Shown: in pieces, positions 7,548-29,018 of the stretch | How the letters are laid out: every line of letters starts with the position of its first letter | Numbering within the stretch: position 1 is the first letter of the stretch | Assembly: GCA_016872925.1 (NCBI GenBank) | Contig: VGYR01000008.1 | Location: forward strand, 1 to 34,434 | From: Planctomycetota bacterium | Lineage (GTDB): Bacteria; Planctomycetota; Planctomycetia; Pirellulales; UBA1268 | Direction of reading: 5' to 3' | DNA length: 34,434 nucleotides | Program-made: the position numbers and the translations under genes | The notes under the pieces: generated by a model | Told to the model about the DNA's origin: nothing | The model's database searches: none | Seen by the model: the letters and a program-made list of their open reading frames with translations, nothing else

Positions 7548-8288
7548 ATGGCCACCTTCGGCGTGATCCTGGCAGCGGCCGGAAAGAGCAGCCGCTTCCA
7601 GGACGCCAATTACAAGAAACCGTTCGCCCCGCTGGCGGGTCGGCCCGTGTGGCTGCATTCGGCCGAACGGTTCACCGACCGTCCCGACGTCAAGCAGGTG
7701 GTGATCGTCGTCGCCCCCGACGATCGTGTGGCGTTCGTCGAGAAGTTCGGCGCCAACCTGGCGTTCATGGGAATCACGCTCGCCGAGGGGGGAGCCCAGC
7801 GCGCCGATTCCGTCCGCCGCGGCCTGGAAAAACTCTCCCCCGAGATCGACGTCGTCGCGATCCACGACGCCGCCCGCCCCTGCCTGGCAGCGGCGTGGAT
7901 CGACAAGGTGTTCGCGGCCGGTGCCCGCACGGGGGCGGCGATCCTCGCCACCCCGGTCGTCGCCACGCTGAAGCGCGTCGCCGCCGACCAGACGATTTCG
8001 GGCACGGTCGATCGCACCGGGCTGTGGGAGGCGCAGACCCCGCAGGTGTTCTCGCGGGCGCTGCTCGAGAAGGCGTTCGCCACCGCACCCGGCAGCCAGG
8101 CGACCGACGAATCGTCGCTGATCGAGGCGCTCGGCCACCCCGTGATCGTCGTGCCGGGATCGCCCCTCAACATCAAGATCACGTCGCGCGAGGACCTGCG
8201 GATGGCGGAGAAGTGCCTCGAGGCGCTTCCCAAGCCGAAGCTCACCGGCCCCCACCACCCCTTCGGCGACGACGACCGATGGCGTTGA
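7548..8288 (+). CDS. ispD: 2-C-methyl-D-erythritol 4-phosphate cytidylyltransferase
   Basis: N-terminal FGVILAAAGKSSRFQ nucleotidyltransferase motif; VAIHDAARPC; ATPVVATLKR; LWEAQTPQVF; C-terminal NIKITSREDLRMAE. Confidence 0.95.
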   Translation: MATFGVILAAAGKSSRFQDANYKKPFAPLAGRPVWLHSAERFTDRPDVKQVVIVVAPDDRVAFVEKFGANLAFMGITLAEGGAQRADSVRRGLEKLSPEIDVVAIHDAARPCLAAAWIDKVFAAGARTGAAILATPVVATLKRVAADQTISGTVDRTGLWEAQTPQVFSRALLEKAFATAPGSQATDESSLIEALGHPVIVVPGSPLNIKITSREDLRMAEKCLEALPKPKLTGPHHPFGDDDRWR

Positions 8289-9595
8289 ACCACACGGATC
8301 TCCTCGCCGATCTGGCGGCCCGCGGCCTGGTCCACCAGTCGACCGATCTGGCCGGGCTGGGATCGTGGCTCGCCACGGCCGGGCGACGGATCTACTGCGG
8401 ATTCGATCCGACGTCCGACAGCCTCCATGTCGGGAGCCTGCTGCCGCTGGTGCTCCTGCGGCGCGTGGCGGCGGCCGGTCACGAACCGATCGCCCTGCTC
8501 GGTGGTGCCACCGGGATGATCGGCGACCCGAGTGGCAGGAGCGAGGAGCGCAACCTGCTCGCCCCGGAGCAACTCGCCGCCAATCTCGCGGGGATCGGCC
8601 ACCAGATCCGCACCCTGTTGGCGGCACCGGGGCCCGACGGCCGCGTCACCTCCGGTCCCGTCCACGTCGTCGACAACGCCGATTGGATGCGCGGTGTCGG
8701 CTATCTCGCCTTCCTCCGCGACGTCGGCAAGCACGTGCCGCTGTCGCAGATGCTCGCCAAGGATTCGGTGCAGTCGCGTCTCGATCGCGACGGCGGGCTG
8801 TCGTACACCGAATTCAGCTACATGCTCCTCCAGGCCTGGGACTTCGTCCATCTGTCCGACGCCTTCGACTGCCGGGTCCAGTTGGGCGGCAGCGACCAGT
8901 GGGGCAACATCACCGCCGGGATCGAGCTCGGGCGCCGGCTCCGCGGTCGCGAGCTCCACGCCGTCACCTGCCCGCTGCTGGTGAAGTCGGACGGCACGAA
9001 GATGGGGAAGACCGCGTCGGGAGCGATCTGGCTCGACGCGAAACGCACCAGCCCGTTCCGGTTCTACCAGTACTGGATCAACCTCGACGACGCCGACGCC
9101 GGCCGCTGCCTGCTGCGGCTCACCGAGCTCCCACTCGACGAGATCCGCGCGCTCGACGCCCAGCGCGCCAGCGACCCGGCCGCGCGGACGAGCCAGAAGC
9201 GCCTCGCCGAGGAGCTCACCCGCCTCGTCCACGGCCCCGACGGCCTGGCCCACGCCCGGCAGGCGACGGAGGTGTTTTTCGGCGCCGAGGTGGCGAGCCT
9301 CGACCCGACGGCGCTCGACGACGTGTTCGCCGACGTCGCCAGCCACGAGTTTTCCAGGACGGCTCTCGACGGCGAGGGCTTGGCGGTCGTCGAGGCGTTC
9401 GAGCGGACCGGCCTGGCGCCGAGCCGGTCGGCGGCGCGGCGGACGATCGAGCAGGGTGGCGGCTACGTCAACAACCGCCGGGTCTCGGATCCCACGCGGC
9501 GGCTGACCTCCGCCGACCTGGTCGGCGGAACGTCGATCGTGCTCCGGTCGGGAAAGAAGTCGTACGCGCTGGCGCGGTTCGCCGATCGGCCTTGA
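8279..9595 (+). CDS. tyrS: Tyrosyl-tRNA synthetase
   Basis: YCGFDPTSDSLHVGSLLPL (HIGH-like), QLGGSDQWGNITAGIEL, KSDGTKMGKTASGAIWL (KMSKS-like), C-terminal S4-like region. ATG 8279 overlaps the ispD stop by 10 bp. Confidence 0.97.
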   Translation: MALNHTDLLADLAARGLVHQSTDLAGLGSWLATAGRRIYCGFDPTSDSLHVGSLLPLVLLRRVAAAGHEPIALLGGATGMIGDPSGRSEERNLLAPEQLAANLAGIGHQIRTLLAAPGPDGRVTSGPVHVVDNADWMRGVGYLAFLRDVGKHVPLSQMLAKDSVQSRLDRDGGLSYTEFSYMLLQAWDFVHLSDAFDCRVQLGGSDQWGNITAGIELGRRLRGRELHAVTCPLLVKSDGTKMGKTASGAIWLDAKRTSPFRFYQYWINLDDADAGRCLLRLTELPLDEIRALDAQRASDPAARTSQKRLAEELTRLVHGPDGLAHARQATEVFFGAEVASLDPTALDDVFADVASHEFSRTALDGEGLAVVEAFERTGLAPSRSAARRTIEQGGGYVNNRRVSDPTRRLTSADLVGGTSIVLRSGKKSYALARFADRP

Positions 9596-15936: not shown

Positions 15937-16291
15937 GGGGGCGTACTGGTTTCGACCGGATCGTCGGAGGTCCGGACCGCGTGCCGTGGTTGGTCGGCTG
16001 GCCACGTTAAAAGTCGACCAAGCTTCAATTGCCGAAGCTCAGTTTTCTCTGGCTGCTTAATTAAGTAGCCCCGAGCGATGGCCCCAGTCGGAAGGGCCTC
16101 CCAATCGGTCGCCAAATCCGACTCGCCCCGGTTCACCGCCTGGTACGGCCGGGGTCAAAAACGTTCCGGGCTGGTCAGCGAGGCACCCTGCCGGCCGGGG
16201 GCCCGCCGACGAGATCCAAATCGACCGGATACGCACGTAGACGTTCGTACTGAAGCATCACGGGACGCGGGTTCGACTCCCGCCGCCTCCA
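15937..16291 (+). ncRNA. ssrA: Transfer-messenger RNA (tmRNA)
   Basis: 5' GGGGGCGTACTGGTTTCGACCGG; tag ORF ending ...FSLAATAATTAA (stop 16058-16060); 3' GGGACGCGGGTTCGACTCCCGCCGCCTCCA. The 5' GGGGGCG pairs with 3' CGCCTCC (one G-U). CCA is not encoded beyond the discriminator A. Confidence 0.96.
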
Positions 16292-17603
16292 TGCCCCGGT
16301 TGTGCAGGGGATCGCAGGATGCTGCGAGACCCCGCACAGCCGGGGCGTTTTCATGCGCGGACGATTCGGCCTGCGAGTCAAAGCACCCACTCGCGGGAAC
16401 TTGCTGCGCCGCTTTGTGCGCCTGTTTGCTGCCGGCGACCGCGGCACGCTCGAAGTCGGCGTCGGTGACATCGACGTAGTGCCTCATCGCCACGGCGACT
16501 GTGTTGCCCAGCCACTTGGCGACCACGGCGAGCGGGTACTCGCGGGCCAGGTCGGTTTCGCAGCTCGCCCGCATCGAATGCCAGAGCCGCGTCCACTGCG
16601 GCACCTTGGCCCGCTTGATGATCTTTTCGAGCGTCGAACGGAGGTTGCAGCCGGCCCACCCGTGCTTGCCGTGGGCGCGACGACGGTACTCCTCGGCGAA
16701 GACGTACTCCGCACCCTCCGGCGCTTGATCCCACGCTTCCTCGAGATACGGCCGCACGTCGGCGAACAGCGGGATCACGCGGTAGCCCCGGCCGGCCAGG
16801 TGCTCGAGTTTCGGGCAGGGAACCGTGATTCGGCCGCGATCCCAGTCGATGTCCTGCCACCGCAGGCTCATGGCCTCGCTCGGCACGCGTAAGCCCGCGA
16901 AACGCGAGAGGGCGATCAAAAGCCGCCAGTCTTGATTCGGGGCGTGGTCGATCACCTGGCGCACGTCCGCTGCCTCGACGTAGGCCCGGCGCTCGGAGGC
17001 GTCCCCGGGGCGATGGCGGACGTACTCAAAGGGATTCTCGGCCAGGAGTTTCTTCCGCTTGGCGTGGTCAAACATCAGCCTCGCGTGCTGGAGCCGCTTG
17101 TGGATCGTCGTGGGGCGAAGCCCGTCGGAGATCATGCGCTGCCGAAACTCCTCGGCCTTTTCGGGAGTCACCTCGGCGATCGGAAAGGCGGACCCAAGAA
17201 ACTCCGTCAGTCCGTCAACGACCTGCTGCCAGGCCCGGACGCTCGCCACCTTGTATTCCGGTTTCCTCGCTTCGAGCCACGCCGCCAGGAACGGCCCCAT
17301 CGTCACGGTTGCGGTTGCCGCGCGGCGGTCTGCGAGACCGGCCTTCACCAGCCGCTCGTGGAGCTTGAGGGGGAGTTCTGCCAGCCAGGAAGCCAGGTCA
17401 CGGCCGTGAGGTTCCCCGGCCGCGAGATCGCTCACCAGGGCCTCGACGCGGCGGTGCCACGATTCGGCGGTCTTCACCGGCAGCTTGCCGAGCCGGATGC
17501 GTTTGCGGCTGCCGTCGGGGACTACGACTTCGATGCGGAAGAAGCCGTTGGGGTCTTTGATGAGTGATGCCATGCGTGTGTCCTCGCGGGTTTGATTCGC
17601 CAC
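16155..17603 (-). CDS. Tyrosine recombinase/integrase, C-terminus reading through att core into antisense tmRNA
   Basis: Tyrosine recombinase catalytic pattern LSRFAGLRVPSEAMSLRWQDIDW...RLWHSMRASCETDLA...VAKWLGNTVAVAMRHYVDVTDADFE; SAM-like N-terminal domain. Residues from ~438 (MEAAGVEPASRDAS...) are encoded by the att core and tmRNA antisense. Start may be 17573 (MASLIKDPNGFF). Confidence 0.92.
   Translation of the reverse strand: MANQTREDTRMASLIKDPNGFFRIEVVVPDGSRKRIRLGKLPVKTAESWHRRVEALVSDLAAGEPHGRDLASWLAELPLKLHERLVKAGLADRRAATATVTMGPFLAAWLEARKPEYKVASVRAWQQVVDGLTEFLGSAFPIAEVTPEKAEEFRQRMISDGLRPTTIHKRLQHARLMFDHAKRKKLLAENPFEYVRHRPGDASERRAYVEAADVRQVIDHAPNQDWRLLIALSRFAGLRVPSEAMSLRWQDIDWDRGRITVPCPKLEHLAGRGYRVIPLFADVRPYLEEAWDQAPEGAEYVFAEEYRRRAHGKHGWAGCNLRSTLEKIIKRAKVPQWTRLWHSMRASCETDLAREYPLAVVAKWLGNTVAVAMRHYVDVTDADFERAAVAGSKQAHKAAQQVPASGCFDSQAESSAHENAPAVRGLAASCDPLHNRGMEAAGVEPASRDASVRTSTCVSGRFGSRRRAPGRQGASLTSPERF
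16272..16291 (+). repeat. attL core (20-bp direct repeat, tmRNA T-arm/acceptor)
   Basis: TTCGACTCCCGCCGCCTCCA identical to 28998-29017. Confidence 0.95.
16293..16351 (+). terminator. Intrinsic-terminator-like hairpin immediately after tmRNA, carried by the element
   Basis: GCCCCGG-TTGTGC-(A)-GGGG-A-TCGCAG-[GATG]-CTGCGA-GA-CCCC-GCACAG-CCGGGGC then GTTTTC; about 23 paired positions with small internal asymmetries. Confidence 0.8.
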
Positions 17604-17663
17604 TCTACCGGGGGAGCGGCCATTGCAGGTGGCCGGGTTTCAGGAACGTGGTCATGTGGGGGC

Positions 17664-18833
17664 TCAGGATTCGGGAAACGCGTACAACCCCGGAGTTTTG
17701 CCCAGGAAGTCCAGAGGGCCGTGTTCCGTTGCTCCCGGCTGGGTGGGCTCCTGAATCTCAGGCGGGTCGCCTTCGGGCGGCAGCTTCCACCACCACGGGC
17801 CTGGGTTGTCGGGGCGATACGCCTCGACCCCGAGGCTCTGCTTCGCACGCACCAGCGTTGTCTTGGAGCCGCCCTCGCCGTTCGTCCACGATTCGATGAG
17901 GTCGGCGGCCGGCCGGGGACCGGCAGCAAGAATGCCGGCCAGCCAGTCCGCGGCCTCGTCGCGTCTCTCGGGCGCTGGGCCGGGCTTCGAGCGAGAAGCC
18001 TTTCCGCCGGCGCGGTGCTCGCCGGCCAAGGCATCGTCGGCCGTCATCGCCACGGGCTCCCGCTCCCAGGAAAGTCGCGCGGGCTCGCCTTGAATCGTGA
18101 ACGCCAGGCCTGTCGGCTCACACGCCAGATTTTGACCACCGGGCAGGAGGAGTCGTCGCGACTTTTTCTCGCGATCCCGACTCATGTGCCACACGGCGCG
18201 GGCGATGCCCACAAACCCGCGCGAGCCAAGAGTCTGCTCATCGGCATTCGTACCCGGCGCTTTCCGGGTGTGACACACGACCAGGACGGCCGTGTCGTAT
18301 TTCTCGGCCAGCCGCGCCACAGGAGCCAGTAGCGCCCGGACCTCGTTGTCTCGATGGGCATCCGTCCGGCCGCCGAGGAAGCTGCCGACAGGGTCGATCA
18401 CCACGAGCCTGCAATCCGGGACCGCAGTGATTGCCGCCTCCAGGGCGGCGGCATCCGCGAGCGTAAACATCACTTCCTCGGGCTTGCCTTTGTCATTGAC
18501 GTGCCTGACGGCGCTCAGCAGGTGGACTCGCGAGGCATCTGCATAGTGCGCGTCGAGCCGCGGGCGAATCGTGTCGGCGGGGTCGTCTTCTGCGGAGATG
18601 AAGATCACAGCCCCCTTCGTGCAGGGAGTGCCGTCTGGCCACGGCGTGCCGGTCGTTACCCGCGAGGCCATGTCGGTGGTCAAGAACGACTTGCCTTCCT
18701 TCGGCCGGCCCACGAGCAGCGTCAGCCGCCCCAGCGGCACGCGGCCGGCATGCTGCCGTCGCTCGTCGAGCTCGCCACCACGGCCGGCGGCCACAGCCAG
18801 CGAACCTCCCGCGGCTGGACCGATGCCATGCAC
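17664..18833 (-). CDS. RepA-like AAA ATPase/helicase
   Basis: GRVPLGRLTLLVGRPKEGKSFLTTDMASRVTTGTPWPDG (Walker A), GAVIFISAEDDPADTIRPRLDA, RLVVIDPVGSFLGGRTDAH (Walker B). Confidence 0.85.
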   Translation of the reverse strand: MHGIGPAAGGSLAVAAGRGGELDERRQHAGRVPLGRLTLLVGRPKEGKSFLTTDMASRVTTGTPWPDGTPCTKGAVIFISAEDDPADTIRPRLDAHYADASRVHLLSAVRHVNDKGKPEEVMFTLADAAALEAAITAVPDCRLVVIDPVGSFLGGRTDAHRDNEVRALLAPVARLAEKYDTAVLVVCHTRKAPGTNADEQTLGSRGFVGIARAVWHMSRDREKKSRRLLLPGGQNLACEPTGLAFTIQGEPARLSWEREPVAMTADDALAGEHRAGGKASRSKPGPAPERRDEAADWLAGILAAGPRPAADLIESWTNGEGGSKTTLVRAKQSLGVEAYRPDNPGPWWWKLPPEGDPPEIQEPTQPGATEHGPLDFLGKTPGLYAFPES

Positions 18834-19741
18834 ACGAGCACCGGTCCTTCTCTCGGCGCGTCGTGGCGGGCTTCGGCGGCGAGCTGTTCGAGCGTCGAGA
18901 CGAGATCCGCTGGGTCGGTGGCGTCGTGGGCCTCGATCCAGTCGTACGCGTCGTCGGCCGGCTCGATCCCGTGCCAGATGCCGGCGAGCCGCACGATCAC
19001 CACGCTCTTGGCACCGGCATCGGTGGCGAGGCGGCGCACGTCGGCTGCATAGGCTGCGCCCTCGTCGTCGTGGTCAGGGACGATCACGACGCTCTTGCCG
19101 GCCAGCGCCGCCCAGTCCGTCTTGCGGGCGCTCTTCGCACCGAAGCTGCTGGTGGTCGCCGTGAGCCCCAGGCTGCGGAGTGCGTCCGCAGCCTTCTCGC
19201 CTTCGCAGACGTAGACCGTTTCGGCGCGGGCGAGTTCAGGGAGCCGATAGAGCGGGCGGGGCTCCTGCATGCCCACAGCCGCCCAGGTGCCGTCCGGCTG
19301 GCGCGACACGGGCCGAATGTCCTTCTTTCCGTCCGGAAGGTTCCAGCGGCACACGATGGCCACCACGGCGTCGTGGGCGTCTCGGTATTCCCACGTCATC
19401 GCCGGCCGGCCCCGGCCCTGGGAAATCGACTCGGCGGCCGCCTCCCAGGTGGGAAACGCTCGCGGCGGTCTTCGGGTTTTCTGGCGCGGCGCGGGTGCGC
19501 TCGCACCGTCGGCGAACAACTCTCTCTTTTCGAGCCGCAGGGCGGCCACGATGGAGCCGAGGTCGCAGCCGGCATGGCAGTGGACCACCGCGTTGCCGTT
19601 GTCGCCGACGCCGACCGACAGGGACGGGCTGGTGTCATTGTGGGCAGGGCATGTCGAGGTCCAGCCGCTGCCGGTCTGGCGGGGCTCGTGGCGCCGCTCC
19701 CGAAGGCGAGCCAGCACGAGGTTGACGGGGTCGTGGCTCAT
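18722..19741 (-). CDS. CHC2 zinc-finger/TOPRIM primase-like protein
   Basis: Zn-finger-like CPAHNDTSPSLSV...VHCHAGCD; TOPRIM-like ETVYVCEGEKAADALRSLGL and VVIVPDHDDEGAAYA. Overlaps the RepA-like ORF by 112 bp in another frame. Confidence 0.83.
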   Translation of the reverse strand: MSHDPVNLVLARLRERRHEPRQTGSGWTSTCPAHNDTSPSLSVGVGDNGNAVVHCHAGCDLGSIVAALRLEKRELFADGASAPAPRQKTRRPPRAFPTWEAAAESISQGRGRPAMTWEYRDAHDAVVAIVCRWNLPDGKKDIRPVSRQPDGTWAAVGMQEPRPLYRLPELARAETVYVCEGEKAADALRSLGLTATTSSFGAKSARKTDWAALAGKSVVIVPDHDDEGAAYAADVRRLATDAGAKSVVIVRLAGIWHGIEPADDAYDWIEAHDATDPADLVSTLEQLAAEARHDAPREGPVLVCMASVQPREVRWLWPPAVVASSTSDGSMPAACRWGG

Positions 19742-19938
19742 GACCGCTCACCGCCTTCCTGCTGCCGGGCCGCGCGGCTGCGGAGCCACTCCTCGAGCAT
19801 GGCGACCGGGTAGAGCGTGCACCGGCCTGCCTTCAGGCACGGGATCTCCCCTGTCTTCGTCTTTTCCCAAAGCCACCGCTCGGAGACCCCGAGGGCGCGG
19901 GCCGCTTCACGCGGCCGAAGAGCCATTGGCGCTGTCAT
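19738..19938 (-). CDS. Small helix-turn-helix protein (excisionase/MerR-like)
   Basis: 66 aa: LRPREAARALGVSERWLWEKTKTGEIPCLKAGRCTLYPVAMLEEWLRSRA; ATGA overlap with the primase start. Confidence 0.85.
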   Translation of the reverse strand: MTAPMALRPREAARALGVSERWLWEKTKTGEIPCLKAGRCTLYPVAMLEEWLRSRAARQQEGGERS

Positions 19939-20014
19939 GGTTGAAACCTCTGCGTGGTCGCGGCCCGCGATGTGCGGCCCGCACGCGTGGAGGTTTCGCC
20001 GATCTGGGAGAGGT

Positions 20015-20057
20015 CAAAAAACCAAATGACGGTGGCGGGACAAATGTCCCGCCGTCA
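20015..20057 (-). terminator. Intrinsic-terminator-like hairpin on minus strand
   Basis: Minus strand reads TGACGGCGGGACATTTGTCCCGCCACCGTCA followed by TTTGGTTTTTT; GGCGGGACA/TGTCCCGCC stem at 20034-20053. Confidence 0.65.
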
Positions 20058-20130
20058 CGGCTGGCACCCCGTAGCTACGTGTCGCAGGAAATTGCGCAGC
20101 CGGGACATCCGAGTGACGGAAGCACGGGGG

Positions 20131-21162
20131 CTACTGGACGTAGTCCGCCATGATCTTCCGTACTTCCTCGTGTCCGGCGTCGTAGAGAAACTTTGGTTTG
20201 TGCGACCTCGGCTCTCGCAACTCCCGGACGGCATCTGCATAGAGCCGCGATCGCTCACGCTGAAGCCGCTTCTTGAGCGCATCTACGTTCTCTTTCGGGA
20301 TTCCAAATGCCTGCACGAGCTCAGCGACGCTCTTCAGCCCCGTAGGCTGGTCGGGCGCGGGATTGCCCATTTTTGATTCGCTCACCGCTGGTTCTGCCGC
20401 CTTGGGTGCGGCTGGGGCCGGGGCGTCCGCTGGCAGCGCTCCGCGTGAGAACACGCTGGCATCCTGTATCGCCTTCATGAGCGATGGCACGACGCTGTCC
20501 CACTCTCCCATCCCCCCGGTGACCGTATCAAGGGACCGAATGGTGCTCGCCAATCTGATCACCGCGGCGTGGGCCTGAGGCGCGAGGCTTGGATGGGCGA
20601 CCGCCTCTACGCCGGCTAAATATGCAAGCGTCTCGATGTCCAACAGCCGTCGCCGATACGCAACGATCGCGGCGTACCACTCGATAGCTTTTGGCGCAAG
20701 ATCACAGTCGGGGCCGTGCTGCTTGCCATGATCGGCAGCCTCATCAAGCGTGATGGCAGCGGCGGCGACCGCTGCGGGGTCGCTCTCCCATTCGTAGAGC
20801 CGCTCACGGCCGGCGCGATACGGCGACTTGTCGCGGAGAAACCCGGCTTGGACGGCCGCCGCCAGGGCGTGCATCCCGTCTGAATCACGATCCCCCCCTT
20901 TTTTCGGGCCGAACACGTGATTGAAGAACTTGGCTACTTTGATCGCTCTGCGGACAAAGTCCGCAATTGCGCCAGCGGCTTGCTCGTCTTTGTCGAGCGG
21001 CGCATCGATTCGATACGCACCGGGGCAGGTCTGCCAGAGCGCGATTTCTGCGATAGTGTTGCGGAGCTGGTCGTGGGTGGCGGCTACTCGCTCGAGAAAA
21101 GCGACTCGTCTCTCGCGCTTGGCAAGGTCGTCATCATTCGCTTCAGGCTCGCTGGAGGCCAT
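20131..21162 (-). CDS. Hypothetical protein (343 aa), function unknown
   Basis: ORF with internal Met MASSEPEANDDDLAKRERRVAFLERV as a more plausible start (21162); no domain recognised. Confidence 0.65.
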   Translation of the reverse strand: MASSEPEANDDDLAKRERRVAFLERVAATHDQLRNTIAEIALWQTCPGAYRIDAPLDKDEQAAGAIADFVRRAIKVAKFFNHVFGPKKGGDRDSDGMHALAAAVQAGFLRDKSPYRAGRERLYEWESDPAAVAAAAITLDEAADHGKQHGPDCDLAPKAIEWYAAIVAYRRRLLDIETLAYLAGVEAVAHPSLAPQAHAAVIRLASTIRSLDTVTGGMGEWDSVVPSLMKAIQDASVFSRGALPADAPAPAAPKAAEPAVSESKMGNPAPDQPTGLKSVAELVQAFGIPKENVDALKKRLQRERSRLYADAVRELREPRSHKPKFLYDAGHEEVRKIMADYVQ

Positions 21163-21389
21163 GATCAATCTCGCATGTCGTGAAAGCCTCTCGGTTGGCC
21201 CCAACGCATGGGAATAACCTGGACGGTCGATACCTGGAGCGGCAGCCTGTCGCGCCGAAAACACGAATTCAACTACTCAAGCCGGCGCAGCAGCGAGAGC
21301 CCCCTTTACGGGGGCCTACCCCAGTCGGTACACAAACTCTTTCCGTTGCTGGGTCGCCCGGCGGCACAAGCATTTTTCCAGGATCGCCC

Positions 21390-24300
21390 ATGTCGAATCG
21401 CACGCTTGCATCGGTGGTTGCGGACTACGGCCAATCGGCCAAGGGCAAGCTCTCGAATCCTGCGATTCAAGGGGAGCCGGAAGATCAGTTGCGGACTCCG
21501 CTCCACGACCTGTTCAAGGATTTGGCCGAGCTCTGTGGCTTCAAGCGTGATCAGATCGAGCCCGTAGGCGAGACATCGCTGGCGAGCCTCAAAACGCGGC
21601 CCGACTACGCCATCACGGTTCGCAAGGCACTCGTCGGCGTCGTCGAGGTCAAGCAGCCCGGCAAAGGAGCCGACCCCCGTTCCTACAAGGGCCACGACAA
21701 GGAGCAATGGCTGCGGCTCCAGTCCCTTCCCAATCTGCTTTACACCGACGGCAACGCCTTCAGCCTCTGGCGCAATGGCGACATTCAGGGGCAGGTCGTG
21801 GTGCTCAATGGAGACATCGCCACCGCCGGGAAATCGCTCTCGGCTCCTCAAGACTTGGTGGCCCTCTTTGATTCGTTTCTCCGCTGGGAACCGATTCCCC
21901 CCCGAACGGTGCCGGAACTGGCACGTACCACGGCCAGGCTGTGTCGCCTCCTGCGCGACGAGGTTACGGAGCAGCTGGAGGCGGGCAGTGAGGCGCTCAC
22001 GGGGCTCGCGAAGGACTGGCGCTTGCTGCTGTTTCCCGAGGCCAACAACGAGCAGTTTGCTGACGGCTATGCCCAGGCCGTGACGTTCGGATTGCTCATG
22101 GCACGGGCGCGAGGCATTACGCTTGGCAACGATCTCGATCGCGTGGGCCGTGAACTGAGCAAGTCGCAATCGCTCATCGGCGCGGCGCTCAAGGTGTTGA
22201 CGGACGACGCCTCAAACGAAAAGGCCCTCAAGACTTCGATCAACACGCTCACCCGTGTGCTCGATGTCGTGAACTGGTATGCGATCAGCAAGGGGCAGCC
22301 CGACGCCTGGCTCTACTTCTACGGAGACTTCCTGGAGGTCTACGACAACGCGCTGCGCAAGCAGACCGGCTCCTATTACACGCCGCCCGAGGTCGTCGGG
22401 CCGATGGTGCGGCTCGTCGATGAAGTCGTGCGGGAGCATTTCGGTCAGCAAGCCGGCCTGGCGGCCCCGACTGTCACCCTCAACGACCCGGCGGCGGGCA
22501 CCGGCACGTACATCCTCCAGATTCTTCGGCACATTGCTGCCAACGTGGCTGCGGAGCAAGGCGAGGGAGCCGTTGGGCCAGCGATCAAGGCGGCGATCGA
22601 TCGGCTGACCGCGTTCGAGATGCAGCTTGGCCCGTTCGCAGTGGCTCAGCTTCGCATCCACGCAGAGTTGATCGATCTCATTGGCGACGTGGCTCATCAG
22701 CCGATGCCGATGTATGTCGCCGACACGCTCTCGAATCCGTGGCATGACAGCGGCTACGCGCCGCAGATCGTCGCGGCCATCGCCGAACAGCGGAAGCTCG
22801 CCAACGAGCTCAAGCGGAAGCGGCGCATCAACGTGGTGGTCGGCAATCCGCCGTACAAGGAAAAGGCGATGGGCCGGGGCGGCTGGGTGGAGGACGTGTT
22901 GCAGGCGGGCGGCCTCACGCCGACGGCCGAAGACATCACCCGCACGAAGACGCGGGCCATCCTGGAAGACTGGATTCCGCCGAAGGATTGGGGCGCAGGC
23001 GCACACGCCAAGCACCTGCGAAACCTCTACATCTACTTCTGGCGCTGGGCGACCTGGAAGGTTTTGAGCAAGGGGAACAGGGCTCGAACGACAACGCCGG
23101 CGTCGTGTGCTTCATCACCGTTGCCGGGTTCTTGAGTGGCCCTGGATTCAAAAAGATGCGGGACTGGCTGCGGCGAACTGCCGACCACATCTGGGTCGTG
23201 AACTGCTCGCCCGAGGGGCATCAGCCCGAGGTGGCGACGCGGATTTTTCAGGGTGTGCAGCAACCAGTGTGTATCGTGATGGTGTCGCGGGCTCGGGCCC
23301 AGAAGGACGATGAGCCGGCGAAGGTGCGGTACGTTGCCCTGCCGGAAGGAAGACGGGATCAGAAGTTCGAGGCGCTGGCCGCGCTCACGATTGATAGCGT
23401 TGGCTGGCAAGACTGCCCGACCGAGTGGCGGGCGCCGTTCCTGCCGGCATCGACGGGCGACTGGACCACGTATCCGGCGCTCGATGAGCTGTTTGCGTAC
23501 AACGGATCTGGAACTCAAGCAAAACGCACTTGGGTAATTGCGCCAGACGACAGTTCTCTATGCTCGCGATGGGATGCGATGATTGCCGAACCGAATCTCG
23601 ACAAAAAGGAGGAGTTATTCCATCCCACCTTGAGAAAAGGAGTGCCTGCTGACCGCCACATTCGATCGGTCGTTCGCGAACCGATCCCTGGCTTTTCACC
23701 AACCCTCACCACGGTCGCGGATGAGACGGGGATTTGCATACGTCCCGTGAGATACGCGTTCCGATCTGTCGACAGGCAATGGATAATCCCCGACAGTCGG
23801 GTGATAACGCAGCCGAATGCCGAGATTTGGCAATCATGTTCGGCTTCGCAACTGTTTGCGACCGCTCCTCATGATCGAGCTCCAACGACCGGTCCCGCGC
23901 TTACGATCACGGCAAGTCCGCCCGACCTTCATCATTACAACGGGCGAGGTGGACGAGTACTGCCGCTTTGGCGGGATGCGACGGCCGCGTGCGCAAACAT
24001 GCCGCCGAGGCTCATTGAGCGAATTCGGCGAACTCACGGCGACTCGTGCACCTGCGAGGACTTGTTCGCATACATCGCAGCAGTCGCCGCGCATCCGGGG
24101 TATACCGCGAGGTTCGCAGAGAACCTCGTTATCCCCGGCCTGCGGATTCCGCTCACTGCCGATCAGGCCCTTTGGAACCAGGCGGTGGACCAGGGCCGAC
24201 AGGTGATCTGGCTCCACACATTCGGTGAGCGCTGCGCGGACAAATCGGCGGGTCGTCCCGCGGGTTCGCCGCGGCCGCCGCAGGCCGACCTCGCGAAGAT

Positions 24301-24790
24301 CCCGAAGGGAGGCTCGATCCCAACCGACCCGGAAAACATGCCTGACGAGATGAAGTACGACGCCGGCAGTCGTACACTCCACGTCGGCAAGGGGCGCATT
24401 GAGAACGTTCCGCCGGCCGTCTGGGAATACGAGGTTTCGGGCAAGCGGGTGCTGACCCAATGGTTCAGCTACCGGAAGAAAACGCGAACCAAGCCGCAGA
24501 TGGGAGATAAGCGGCCGCCCTCCAAGCTGAGCGAGATTCAGCCTGACGGGTGGCTGGCCGAGTACACGACGGAACTCCTCAACGTGATCCACGTCCTCGG
24601 GCTGCTCGTGCAACTCGAGCCGCAGCAGAAAACCCTGCTGAATGAAATTTGCGATGGCCCGCTCATCTCTCGGGCGGACTTGGAAGCCGCCGGGGCGCTC
24701 GAGTGCCCTCCCAAATGGAAAAAGGCGATGCGGGCCGCGGCCGCCACGCTGTTTGACGAGCAGGACGACGAGTCTGCCGGGGATGAGTAA
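21390..24790 (+). pseudogene. Nuclease-N6-adenine methyltransferase-specificity protein (type ISP/IIG-like), split by a frameshift near 23062-23065
   Basis: N-terminal PD-(D/E)XK-like RPDYAITVRKALVGVVEVKQPG; SYYTPPEVVGPMVRLV; NDPAAGTGTYILQILR; VVGNPPYKEKA (NPPY). The product continues in the -1 frame as FEQGEQGSNDNAGVVCFITVAGFLSGPGFKKMRDWLRR... to 24790. Confidence 0.85.
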
Positions 24791-24820
24791 ATCCAGCTGG
24801 GTTATCGCCACGCCCGGCTG

Positions 24821-25369
24821 TCATCGCGCGAGCCGAACCGCATAGCGGTCGTAGGAGATCCCGGTGTGCGGCTCCTTATACGGTGCGCCGTAAGTAGCGA
24901 ATCCAAAACGCTGGTAGAGACGGATAGCCGCGACGTTTCGCGGGTCAACATAAAGGCTTACCGCCTGCATGTTCCCCTGCCATTGATGAGCGTTGTCAAG
25001 AAGGTGTCGCATGATCTGCGACGAATAGCGGCCGTCCGTATTTGGGTCAGACGTTCGTTCTGCTTTGGGTTCACCCTTGAACTCTTTCTTGAGCCCCAGC
25101 TCCGGGATGACGAGCACGGGCACTCTTGGTGACTTCGGCGTCGGGTACCGCAACAGCGACTTACTCACATCCAACGAACTGAAGCCGACGACAAGATCTT
25201 GCTGATTCATGTAGAGCCAGACCTTGGTGCCGAGGGCTATCGCCTCCAAGGCGTGCTCCTGAATCCAATAGGAAGGCTCTTGCTCCCATGGATCGGGGCC
25301 ACAGTCGAAGCCGGCCACGAACGGGAGCAGGTCGGCATCGAACGGCACAGGGAACAGAACGTCCGCCAT
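24821..25369 (-). CDS. GNAT family N-acetyltransferase
   Basis: MADVLFPVPFDADLLPFVAGF...VPVLVIPELG...YSSQIMRHLLDNA...AVSLYVDPRNVAAIRLYQRFGFATYGAPY typical GNAT C-terminal fold; start at 25369. Confidence 0.85.
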   Translation of the reverse strand: MADVLFPVPFDADLLPFVAGFDCGPDPWEQEPSYWIQEHALEAIALGTKVWLYMNQQDLVVGFSSLDVSKSLLRYPTPKSPRVPVLVIPELGLKKEFKGEPKAERTSDPNTDGRYSSQIMRHLLDNAHQWQGNMQAVSLYVDPRNVAAIRLYQRFGFATYGAPYKEPHTGISYDRYAVRLAR

Positions 25370-25379
25370 GCCGGCGCTA

Positions 25380-25934
25380 CTACCTCGCGCGCCGCTTGAA
25401 CTCCTCAGCCGACAGCTCTTGCACCGGCTGCTTTGGAGCGTAAGGGAGAGGTGTCGCACAATGGATAATGCGATCAAGCGCGGCAGCCGCATCTTCGGGC
25501 AACTGATGTTCGCGCAGGCCCACAGCCAGGGAAAGCCGGGGCGACTTCCAGTCACGTAAAGTGGCCTCGACTATCGGCAGTTCCTGACGCAGCTTTTCAA
25601 CGCCGGTCACTTCGTCGAACTGCTGTTCCAACCCATCGACAAGCTGTTCAAGAATCGCGCGAGTGGTCCGCACCCAAAGGTCATGCGCCCGGCGAAACTG
25701 TTGTTCCTGCTTTTCCGAAAACGCGACGGAACCACGAAAAACCTGCTCGCGCCATTGAGCCTCACGCGTCTTCAGAACGCCGTAAACGTCGAGGCCCGTC
25801 GCGACTAAGTTCTCGACCCACTCCTTGCGATCCCACCACTTCATCGCCAAGTCGTGGTCGCTCTTCCATTGTTCCTCGTACGCCTCCGCGAAAGTCATCC
25901 ACGGCGGGGCATGGCCTTCGTTGGTGCTAGACAT
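25380..25934 (-). CDS. Helical protein of unknown function preceding the GNAT gene
   Basis: 184 aa from MSSTNEGHAPPWMTFAEAYEEQW (25934); charged and helical; stop 10 bp before the GNAT start. Confidence 0.7.
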   Translation of the reverse strand: MSSTNEGHAPPWMTFAEAYEEQWKSDHDLAMKWWDRKEWVENLVATGLDVYGVLKTREAQWREQVFRGSVAFSEKQEQQFRRAHDLWVRTTRAILEQLVDGLEQQFDEVTGVEKLRQELPIVEATLRDWKSPRLSLAVGLREHQLPEDAAAALDRIIHCATPLPYAPKQPVQELSAEEFKRRAR

Positions 25935-26099
25935 GGGGGAACCTTTTGGTGCTGCTGGGTAAGGGAAAGATCGGCAAAAAGGATTACCAAACTCCACCTG
26001 CAAGCACTATAGCGGCGCTGGGTCGGATCTCAATTTTTCGGGAAAATCAGCGGCGAAACACGCTTTTTCGGTAGCGAAAAGCCGGCGACTTGGCGATTC

Positions 26100-26710
26100 G
26101 GGCGCAAGGGGCGAACGCCGGCTCGGCGGCGGCACGATGCCGCCGCCAACAGAGGCCGGATGCCGTGCCGCAGCCGGGAACCGGCTGCTCCGCTGAATAC
26201 GCTCGAGGGCGCTACGGGGGCTTGCAGCCTTGCTGATCGCAACAGGAGCGGACGCGGCACGCGGCGAACGGGGCTGAGGATGAGCCCCTGGGAGCCTCCG
26301 CCGCGGGAGCGAAGCCCTGCCAACCCAGGCGGCGATACGAAGCCGCCGCCGCGGGCCGCGATCTCAAAGCCGGCGGCCACAAGGGCGGCGGAGGCTCGGC
26401 GGCATGGATGCCGCCGTTGAGGCTGGCAGGATGCCTTCCGGCGGCCGCTTGCGGCCGCTCCGCTAGCGGCACGATGCCGCCTTCGCAGCGGCGGGGATGC
26501 CCTCGATTCCGCTATGGGGGAGATGGAAGCCGGGGGCGCGGCGAGTGCCGCATCGCGGGGGGCGGCGAGGGGGAGGGGGGCGAGACGATGCCGGATGCGG
26601 AGATGAGCTCCCCTCCCCCTGATGAGCCCCCCGCAGAAAACAGCATCGAGGGCTAGCCGCTGCCAGAAAACAGCGGGAGGGCAGGATGCCCGACCTCCGC
26701 TTTTTGTCTT
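26100..26710. repeat. Hairpin-dense noncoding mosaic
   Basis: Consecutive perfect or near-perfect hairpins: GGCGGCGGCA-CGA-TGCCGCCGCC (26125-26147), CAGCCGG-GAA-CCGGCTG (26171-26187), GGCGGC-GATACGAA-GCCGCC (26328-26347), CGGCGGCAT-GG-ATGCCGCCG (26397-26416), GCGGCA-CGA-TGCCGC (26466-26480), GGGCA-GGA-TGCCC (26679-26691). Confidence 0.75.
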
Positions 26711-26855
26711 CGCGGCACGACGGAAGCCGCCCCAAACGAGCTGGAGTCGTGCCGCCCGGGCCGGAGGCCACCGCCTCGTCACTTTGGGTTGATGATGCCT
26801 GGGCGAGCGTGGCAACCGCGACGTTCCGTCTTCTGCCGCGATAAGGCTACTGCCG

Positions 26856-28562
26856 CTATGCGTCGTCTGCGACAGCGTCAAACTCGCTGTCCTCTTCCAC
26901 CTCATCCGGATCACTGTCATCTCCGATGACGACGGGCTTGGCATCATCGCACGGCCGCAACGGAATCCAGTTCTGCAGTTCATCTGAAATCGCTTTGCAT
27001 CGGGCCGCGAAGAACGCGTCGTAATCGTCGTCCCAAACGCCCGTCTCGAGGTCGATGAGATGCGATGTCATGGTGTCCGCGAGGTTCGGGTTGTGCTGGC
27101 GGAACTCGGACATGTAATCGGAGGGCTTGCGGGTCTTGATTTTCCGCTTGTTCAAGAAGTCATCGACAATCGTGATATTGGCGATGTGATTGATCCGTCG
27201 CGGTTCCACACCGCGCCTGTTGAGCACCACCTTCGGGAAGAAATGGTGGTAGTTCTTGCTATTCGCTTGCTTGAGCCAGTCGTTCGCTATGCGAACGATC
27301 CCGTCGTCGTCAAACGAGCGTGGCTGTTGGTACGCAAGCAGGCACAGGATTGCCTTCACGAAACTGCGACTCGCTCGGAAGAACCCGAAGCGATCGATCG
27401 CGTCCGGGGACGTGTCGACGGCGAAGGCCGTGTCGTAGACCGGCTGCCTGCCTTCCGCGATCGCAAGAACCTTCTTCGCGTCTTGGGCGAGTTTGGTTTC
27501 GGTGGCGGACGTATAGCGGCCGGTCAGTGAGATGCGCCAAAACAACTCTCTCAGCAGCGGTATTTGCTCACCAGACGGCTTGTCAGGATGAGCGTCGAAG
27601 AAGACCGCGAAGGGAACGACGAGGGATGCGTATGGCAGAAGTTTGGACGCGGGCAGCCGATAGGCACCTCGAAAGTGTTCGCAGGCGGCTTTCACGGACT
27701 CCTCGACCCGCGGCCAGACGCTTCGGAACTCGGCAGTATCGAGTCGCAGGATGTCCTGCTTTCTTGCCTCGCCGACGAGAAGAAGGCTGGCGATCTGCAA
27801 GACCGCTGATTGGGGCAGCGTGTCGTAACCAATCGTCTCAAGCTGGCCGAGAAGCGCTTGGTATCGGTCGGTGAGATCAAAGTGGTTCACATGGTCGTAC
27901 GTCTTGGCGACCATCACTTCGAAGACACTGAGCGGCTTTCCGGTCACGTTGATTCGGGTGAAGACTTCGGTGGCAACGTCGATCGGAGCATCCTGGATCA
28001 GGATCACCGAGAATCGGTACTCTTTGACGCGCCGGCTGCATTCCCGCAGGCGCTCACGCCGCTCGGGCGTAAGCCGCGCGAGAAAATCAAAGTCCTCGGC
28101 CAGCACATCGACAAGTCGGACATGGCGGCCCGGCTTGTCGTCGGCCGGTGTCGAAGGAAGGACGACCGCGGTATCAGTGTCGGTGTCGGCGTCGAGGTCA
28201 ACGCATATCTGCGCGAAATCATCCTTGCGGCCGTCGAAGCGTTCGAGCAACAGCCCTTTGACCGCTGCGTACAGACTCGTCAGCCGTTGTTGTCCGTCCA
28301 GAACCTGCTCCGCGTAGTCGCCATGCGGAGTCGGTGGTAACTGAACGCCGCCGATGTCGCGAACGGCCCTGAGTTGCTCCCTCGTCTTCCAGAGAATGAA
28401 GGTACCGATCGGGTACCCCTTGAGGATGCTGTCGATCAGCTTTGCCGACTTTTCCCGGGACCAGACGAACTCCCGCTGGAACTGCGGGATTTTCATGGTC
28501 CCAAGTTCGATGCCGTTGATGACCTGGGTGTAGGAGCGGCTCTGTGGGTCTGGCTGGTGCAT
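26856..28562 (-). CDS. DUF262 plus HNH (DUF1524-like) single-chain protein, GmrSD/SspE-like
   Basis: SYTQVINGIELGTMKIPQFQREFVWSREKSAKLIDSILKGYPIGTFILWK and EQVLDGQQRLTSLYAAVKG (DUF262); C-terminal NYHHFFPKVVLNRRGV...INHIANITIVDDFLNKRKIKTRKPSDYM (HNH/DUF1524-like). Start placed at MHQPDPQSRSY. Confidence 0.88.
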   Translation of the reverse strand: MHQPDPQSRSYTQVINGIELGTMKIPQFQREFVWSREKSAKLIDSILKGYPIGTFILWKTREQLRAVRDIGGVQLPPTPHGDYAEQVLDGQQRLTSLYAAVKGLLLERFDGRKDDFAQICVDLDADTDTDTAVVLPSTPADDKPGRHVRLVDVLAEDFDFLARLTPERRERLRECSRRVKEYRFSVILIQDAPIDVATEVFTRINVTGKPLSVFEVMVAKTYDHVNHFDLTDRYQALLGQLETIGYDTLPQSAVLQIASLLLVGEARKQDILRLDTAEFRSVWPRVEESVKAACEHFRGAYRLPASKLLPYASLVVPFAVFFDAHPDKPSGEQIPLLRELFWRISLTGRYTSATETKLAQDAKKVLAIAEGRQPVYDTAFAVDTSPDAIDRFGFFRASRSFVKAILCLLAYQQPRSFDDDGIVRIANDWLKQANSKNYHHFFPKVVLNRRGVEPRRINHIANITIVDDFLNKRKIKTRKPSDYMSEFRQHNPNLADTMTSHLIDLETGVWDDDYDAFFAARCKAISDELQNWIPLRPCDDAKPVVIGDDSDPDEVEEDSEFDAVADDA

Positions 28563-28781
28563 GTCTTCAACGTCTCCGAAACGAATACCGATCGCGGCCG
28601 GATCGCCACAAAGTTCACGCCAGCGACGCCCAGTTCGCGGGCTAAAGGCGTTCACCGAACCTGCACGCCAACGGCGGGGGCAGGAACGCTAAACCCGTTG
28701 GCCCGACCTCACGGGAATCCTGATTGTGAGGGGCGAGCCCCTACGCCAAAGCGGCATCCTAGTCGGGGCCACGGCAAAAGC

Positions 28782-29018
28782 CTACGGTGCCGGGGATTGA
28801 CCGATTTCAGCGGTTGAGGCGGGGTTTGGGACTGCCGCCGGGCCGACGGCGGACTCCATGATCGCGCATCTTTGGACCGCCGTCAGCGAGGGCCACCGCT
28901 TCACGATGAAAGCCAAGAGCGGGTCCGACAGAAGTGCGCCGTTTTCTGCGCCTCCTTGATGCTGGACTGGAGTTTCAACCGGGGTATCCTGTGAAACTTC
29001 GACTCCCGCCGCCTCCAC
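28782..29018 (-). other. Orphan C-terminal coding segment, predicted to join the integrase ORF in the excised circle
   Basis: MEAAGVEVSQDTPVETPVQHQGG...SDPLLAFIVKRWPSLTAVQRCAIMESAV...; starts in the att core in the same frame as integrase codon M438. Confidence 0.7.
28998..29017 (+). repeat. attR core (20-bp direct repeat)
   Basis: TTCGACTCCCGCCGCCTCCA identical to 16272-16291; flanked by sequence unrelated to tmRNA on its left. Confidence 0.95.

Follow-up and report, generated by a model that had tools for sequence, protein, structure and literature searches.

An attachment site embedded in a planctomycete integrase gene and the predicted exchange of the integrase C-terminus upon integration

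The subject of this analysis is a 34,434-nt stretch of contig VGYR01000008.1 from a Planctomycetota bacterium (called the window below; all positions are window positions), in which a mobile element lies inserted at the 3' end of the transfer-messenger RNA (tmRNA) gene. The integrase gene (int) of this element runs in frame across the attachment core, and the second copy of the core, at the far end of the element, opens in the same frame onto a tail that would be joined to the integrase only in the circular form. Judged from the repeats described below, a complete attP (arm site, core, arm site) lies inside int, and the window is one case of a family-wide design in planctomycete mobile elements. 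We consider it likely that integration removes a conserved hairpin from an integrase that stays catalytically complete, that this hairpin acts in the circle, and that its loss favours staying integrated.

Integrase, core and tail in the window

The ends of the element are direct repeats of the tmRNA 3' end and int adjoins one of them, as in genomic islands targeted to tRNA or tmRNA genes. Both copies of the core, TTCGACTCCCGCCGCCTCCA, are exact over 20 bp, and the match extends into the flanks on neither side (Table 1). The empty insertion site was sought in the genus through the gene on the right flank, and no relative carries that gene. The integrase belongs to the tyrosine recombinase family, with a PF00589 match and the R, HxxR and Y motifs present in the translation as GLRVPSE, HSMRAS and MRHY. 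The listed open reading frame (ORF) opens with GTG at 17603; since the homologues begin at MAS, the ATG of MASLIKDPNG at about 17573 is the likely true start.

At attL the integrase frame crosses the core as HNRG-MEAAGVE, continues into the antisense strand of the tmRNA and stops at 16155. At attR the core, in the same codon phase, opens an ORF reading VEAAGVEVSQDTPVETPVQHQGG...LAFIVKRWPSLTAVQRCAIMESAV...GQSPAP, with its stop at 28782. When the two ends were joined in silico through the core, a single frame of 515 amino acids resulted, with the 71-residue tail last (compare with 482 amino acids in the integrated form), and the break point fell about 45 codons past the catalytic tyrosine. The coordinates and peptides given in a preliminary description of this DNA proved correct when the core, frames and ORFs were read again, with the small correction that the attR ORF starts with GTG and not ATG. 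Searches of Pfam, NCBIfam and PHROGs with the orphan tail gave no match.

Table 1. Positions of the tmRNA gene, the element and the features of its integrase system in the window.
Feature	Positions	Strand	Remarks
tmRNA (ssrA), insertion target	15937-16291	+	ARAGORN; Rfam RF00023 match 15937-16294; tag AEAQFSLAA
Integrase ORF, integrated state, 482 amino acids	16155-17603	-	PF00589 7.4e-12; SAM-like domain 4.1e-8; last 46 codons in antisense tmRNA
att core, attL, tmRNA 3' end	16272-16291		20-bp exact direct repeat
Integrated element, 12.7 kb	16292-28997		Cargo: AAA_25 ATPase, Toprim/CHC2 primase-like protein, type IIG restriction-modification, GNAT and GmrSD-like genes
Candidate arm-type site, integrase side, GGCGCACAAAGCGGCGCA	16405-16422	-	GGYGCA half-site twice, spacing 12 bp; from element to element its variants follow those of the tail-side site
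HTH_17 protein, 66 amino acids, candidate excisionase/recombination directionality factor	19738-19938	-	PF12728 4.4e-11
Orphan integrase tail, 71 codons + stop	28782-28997	-	Joined to int solely in the circular form
Conserved two-helix hairpin DPLLAFIVKRWPSLTAVQRCAIMESAV	28845-28925	-	AlphaFold2 of the tail alone, helices 33-44 and 47-57, block predicted local distance difference test score 84-96; family protein-level selection
Candidate arm-type site, tail side, GGCGCAGAAAACGGCGCA	28935-28952	-
att core, attR	28998-29017		20-bp exact direct repeat

Occurrence of the arrangement across the family

We looked for the tail in other genomes. Used alone as a query, it had relatives in 17 of 297 genomes from the order, most of them short ORFs that start inside a core resembling tRNA or tmRNA; its homologues in other genomes have identities of 86, 68 and 46%. 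With a profile built from 15 tails, 87 of the 392 genomes sampled from the phylum gave a match, and a scan of bacteria and archaea with one genome per species yielded 51 tail loci, all 51 of them in Planctomycetota.

The position of the tail was then compared with that of the integrase. For the 33 tails with a family integrase within 100 kb on the same contig, the two were on the same strand in 32 cases and in 31 the tail lay on the side expected from the circular model. Where integrase and tail shared an adjacent core of at least 11 nt (35 pairs), this core was in frame with both of them in 33, compared with one third expected by chance. The apparent cores of elements G401b, G648a and G648b are either brief or displaced from the tRNA end, and could have arisen by chance; without them, all clear cases are concordant except G012, whose integrase is degenerate. 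In G015 the longest repeat is out of frame, yet the peptide VGQAGLE is common in frame to both sides. The relation between core and tail is thus not a matter of chance, because tail homologues exist in other genomes and the combination of core and frame recurs family-wide.

ARAGORN found an antisense tRNA or tmRNA over the 3' end of 38 of the 56 distinct family integrases (compare with 7 of 615 other long ORFs), and this overlap is the reason why family integrases end in GFEPATSRL-like peptides.

Uninterrupted forms were found in viral contigs. A scan of IMG/VR with an integrase alignment as query gave three contigs in which integrase, core and tail form one unbroken ORF, two of them from one phage. 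In the first (L200, IMGVR_UViG_3300009431_001185) the catalytic domain, the peptide LPPRGVEQ and the tail lie in one 524-codon frame with no tRNA nearby; LPPRGVEQ is the antisense translation of TTCGACTCCCCTTGGGGGTA, a tRNA-Glu-like core that is the same as in element G104. The two others (L198 and L199), 99.9% identical over 12.3 kb, carry a 520-codon integrase-core-tail frame flanked by phage-type exonuclease and methyltransferase genes. In G680, an integrated relative within the same collection, int and tail are apart. An earlier IMG/VR scan with a single protein query gave no match, a tail-only scan gave 58 pattern matches of which none was confirmed, and the full-length joined integrase had no match among plasmid and phage records. 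The homologous elements (31/33 for layout, 33/35 for frame, and the fused viral ORFs) therefore support the proposal made in the preliminary description, that circular and integrated forms encode different integrase C-termini. Its further idea, a state-dependent switch of activity or stability, can be put forward only as a hypothesis, and some relatives have no tail.

Other arrangements of tails were also observed. On contig C13 of the window's own genome (L057, G000:C13:12400-32350; 7848-9208 and 18983-19711) an integrase fragment is joined via a core to a tail, and this fusion adjoins a second integrase and a tRNA-Glu. It is probably a tandem array at tRNA-Glu in which the integrase of one element has been completed by the tail of its neighbour, an arrangement through which tails could be swapped between elements. 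Paired orphan tails stand in close tandem at two loci, L070 (9810-9944 and 10155-10481) and L164 (9584-10120 and 10537-10962), and may be what repeated insertion at a single tRNA has left behind. Long ORFs in which the tail seemed to be fused to other proteins (L140-L143) were rejected as integrase fusions, being chance read-through of an upstream open frame.

Protein and DNA conservation past the core

The helical part of the tail, DPDLAxVVxAWPxLPxxIRxxI, makes use of all synonymous codons across 114 distinct tails, and the conserved L, W, A, P and R of the hairpin are written in many different codons. For 34 independent hairpin pairs, the ratio of nonsynonymous to synonymous changes (pN/pS) was 0.29, compared with 1.24 in the +1 frame, and the changes were concentrated at third positions (158/111/419 by codon position). 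By these measures the hairpin is conserved as protein. The preliminary description would have fallen if homologous elements had lacked an open frame or coding conservation past the core; both were looked for and are present.

The neighbouring segment, GGAESGAL, behaves differently: its codons are skewed (GCA, TCC) across the same tails, and it corresponds to a DNA motif, GGYGCA-N6-GGYGCA, outside of which the hairpin lies. The window contains two exact matches to this motif, compared with an expected 0.04, and in the circle they would lie to either side of the core; since the window's own tail was among those from which the motif had been drawn up, these two matches are not a fully independent test, but the covariation between the sides is. 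Of 27 elements, 17 have the exact motif on the integrase side and 13 have it on the tail side (about 0.02 and 0.01, respectively, in codon shuffles), and on the integrase side it is translated in two frames across elements, giving GGAESGA or AQNAAQ. Variants of the half-site (GGCACA, GACGCA) match between the two sides of the same element, with 11.70 of 12 letters shared compared with 10.36 after shuffling (0 of 5000 permutations). The repeats come in pairs on either side of the core and agree with each other inside each element, so they look like arm-type integrase sites, with the properties expected of sites that the N-terminal domain of the integrase would bind. The tail, presented in the preliminary description as retained over its 71 residues, is thus of two kinds: the hairpin is kept as protein, and about a third of the tail is not conserved as protein and instead encodes the DNA site.

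An AlphaFold2 model of the intact integrase of L200 is ordered up to about residue 373, of low confidence from 373 to 459, and helical at 457-474 and 477-492. In this model the attachment DNA appears to be translated as a flexible linker between catalytic domain and hairpin, which would permit constraint at the DNA level without harm to the enzyme. The best solved-structure matches of the integrase were XerA, Tn1549 Int and lambda Int, and a fold search of the PDB with the hairpin or tail gave none. We also considered whether the tail is a degradation tag; however, the tails end in ..QSPAP, ..RSVVG, ..AAGEA or ..EGNR and thus have no common ssrA-like end, which makes a simple tag unlikely.

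Proposed function, related systems and element cargo

In the cycle that we propose, the free circle would encode the full-length integrase (about 515 amino acids) with its hairpin; recombination at the core would carry the hairpin off to the opposite end of the element, and int would then read on into the antisense tmRNA. The integrated element would be left with an integrase that is, by sequence, catalytically complete and whose hairpin is replaced by a short host-encoded end. The hairpin is selected as protein but attached to the integrase solely in the circle, and should therefore act while the element is circular; integration is the simplest candidate, and the hairpin might help it through protomer contacts, stability or directionality. 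Its loss would bias the element toward remaining integrated, and excision would require the tail-less integrase together with an excisionase, perhaps the HTH_17 protein. The core, the frame, the conservation, the paired DNA sites and the intact forms in viral contigs, on which this proposal is built, can all be read in the DNA. Its extension to a bacterial class of state-switching integrases, in which the hairpin drives integration and the direction of recombination in planctomycete mobile elements is set by its exchange in the DNA, is put forward only tentatively.

Several observations weigh against the proposed cycle. Among 11 further integrases from complete genomes, just 3 have an in-frame tail past a second core, 4 have 7-26 codons past the core, and for 4 no second core was present in the fetched stretch; the tail is therefore not universally required, or many elements have decayed. 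Tail and integrase distances are weakly correlated once near-identical elements are removed (r=0.19; 293 of 5000 permutations). In the nearest single pair, the window and G196, the ratio of nonsynonymous to synonymous substitution rates (dN/dS) was 0.58 for the tail and 0.16 for the integrase. Moreover, the IMG/VR contigs with a fused ORF are linear fragments, and the fused form is known from linear sequence.

The relatives that keep a core followed by only these few codons also speak for another explanation, in which the architecture is real and the exchange of tails has no regulatory role, the hairpin being a general stability or oligomer part, the integrase without it just as capable, and the swap a by-product of packing attP into int. 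The arm sites by themselves would indeed account for the presence of attP in the gene. We nevertheless regard this as rather unlikely, given that throughout the phylum the hairpin is maintained as protein, with its codons free, though it lies outside the integrase when the element is integrated. The tail might instead be a separate small gene in the integrated state, acting in trans, for instance as a factor for directionality or through non-covalent reunion with the tail-less integrase; among the orphan tails inspected by eye, most, like the window ORF, do have their GTG or ATG start codon at the core's CCA end. However, the DNA upstream of the attR tail belongs to the host and varies between elements, so that a shared element-borne promoter or ribosome site is unlikely there, the frame continuity with int (33/35) would be needless, and intact fused forms exist, all of which makes a separate gene very improbable. 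Finally, that the tail is conserved only as DNA of an attP arm, with no selection on the protein past the core, would fit the skewed codons of GGAESGAL and the two reading frames on the integrase side, but this is largely refuted by the pN/pS of the hairpin outside the motif and deserves almost no credence.

Of the systems described in the literature searched, two stand closest. The proposed cycle, with attP inside int, recalls the archaeal suicidal (SSV-type) integrases of SSV1, pTN3 and pT26-2, in which the recombination site also lies within the integrase gene, integration breaks the gene, the targets are tRNA genes and the module is self-contained (PMC8371274). In those systems the cut separates the N-terminal from the catalytic part and the pieces are inactive in vitro (PMC8371274), whereas the window integrase is cut past its catalytic domain, which leaves the catalytic protein whole with a new end. 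The Phage_integr_3 domain (PF16795) of the SSV type is absent from the Pfam matches of the window integrase at E<=1. According to a 2021 review, suicidal integrases are confined to archaea (PMC8371274); the present elements would extend self-disrupting integrase genes to a bacterial phylum, in a milder form in which the end is exchanged and the catalytic protein survives.

Free and integrated forms also differ in a C-terminus in the integration-dependent immunity of mycobacteriophages (Broussard et al. 2013). There attP lies in the repressor gene, and the part lost is a short degradation tag, 20-35 residues long and in many cases ssrA-like (PMC8092301); the planctomycete case differs in that attP lies in int, and in that the lost part is a folded hairpin with a linker, without a conserved XXXAA-type end.

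The integrase resembles the heterobivalent integrases of the lambda/Tn916 type in its N-terminal arm-binding-like, SAM-like and catalytic domains, and paired candidate arm sites lie around its core. It differs from them in that these candidate sites and the core are translated within int and in its extra C-terminal hairpin. In other bacteria, int genes are known that overlap attP by their last few codons; the present case stands apart through its complete embedded attP and the conserved domain beyond it. The open-licence literature searched yielded no account of this arrangement in Planctomycetes. It would offer a simple route for DNA itself to record and report whether an element is integrated or free. 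It also accounts for the frequent antisense-tRNA peptide ends of planctomycete integrases and for the scattered short orphan ORFs with a W-P-x-L hairpin; these orphan tails mark the far ends of elements and can help in delimiting them.

A 16S rRNA gene on the minus strand is already under way at the window start (1-960). After int, the region 17664-19938 encodes the AAA_25 ATPase, the Toprim/CHC2 primase-like protein and the HTH_17 protein, a replication-like module of the kind that occurs in satellites and integrated plasmids. The type IIG restriction-modification gene (21180-24790) is split: its two ORFs, 21180-23135 and 22988-24790, overlap on the plus strand and correspond to consecutive halves of a single PADLOC model, which suggests a frameshift. 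A GmrSD/DUF262-like gene (26856-28655; PF03235, with PADLOC PDC-M55C and SspE-like matches) adjoins the tail end of the element and, together with the type IIG gene, suggests a defence cargo.

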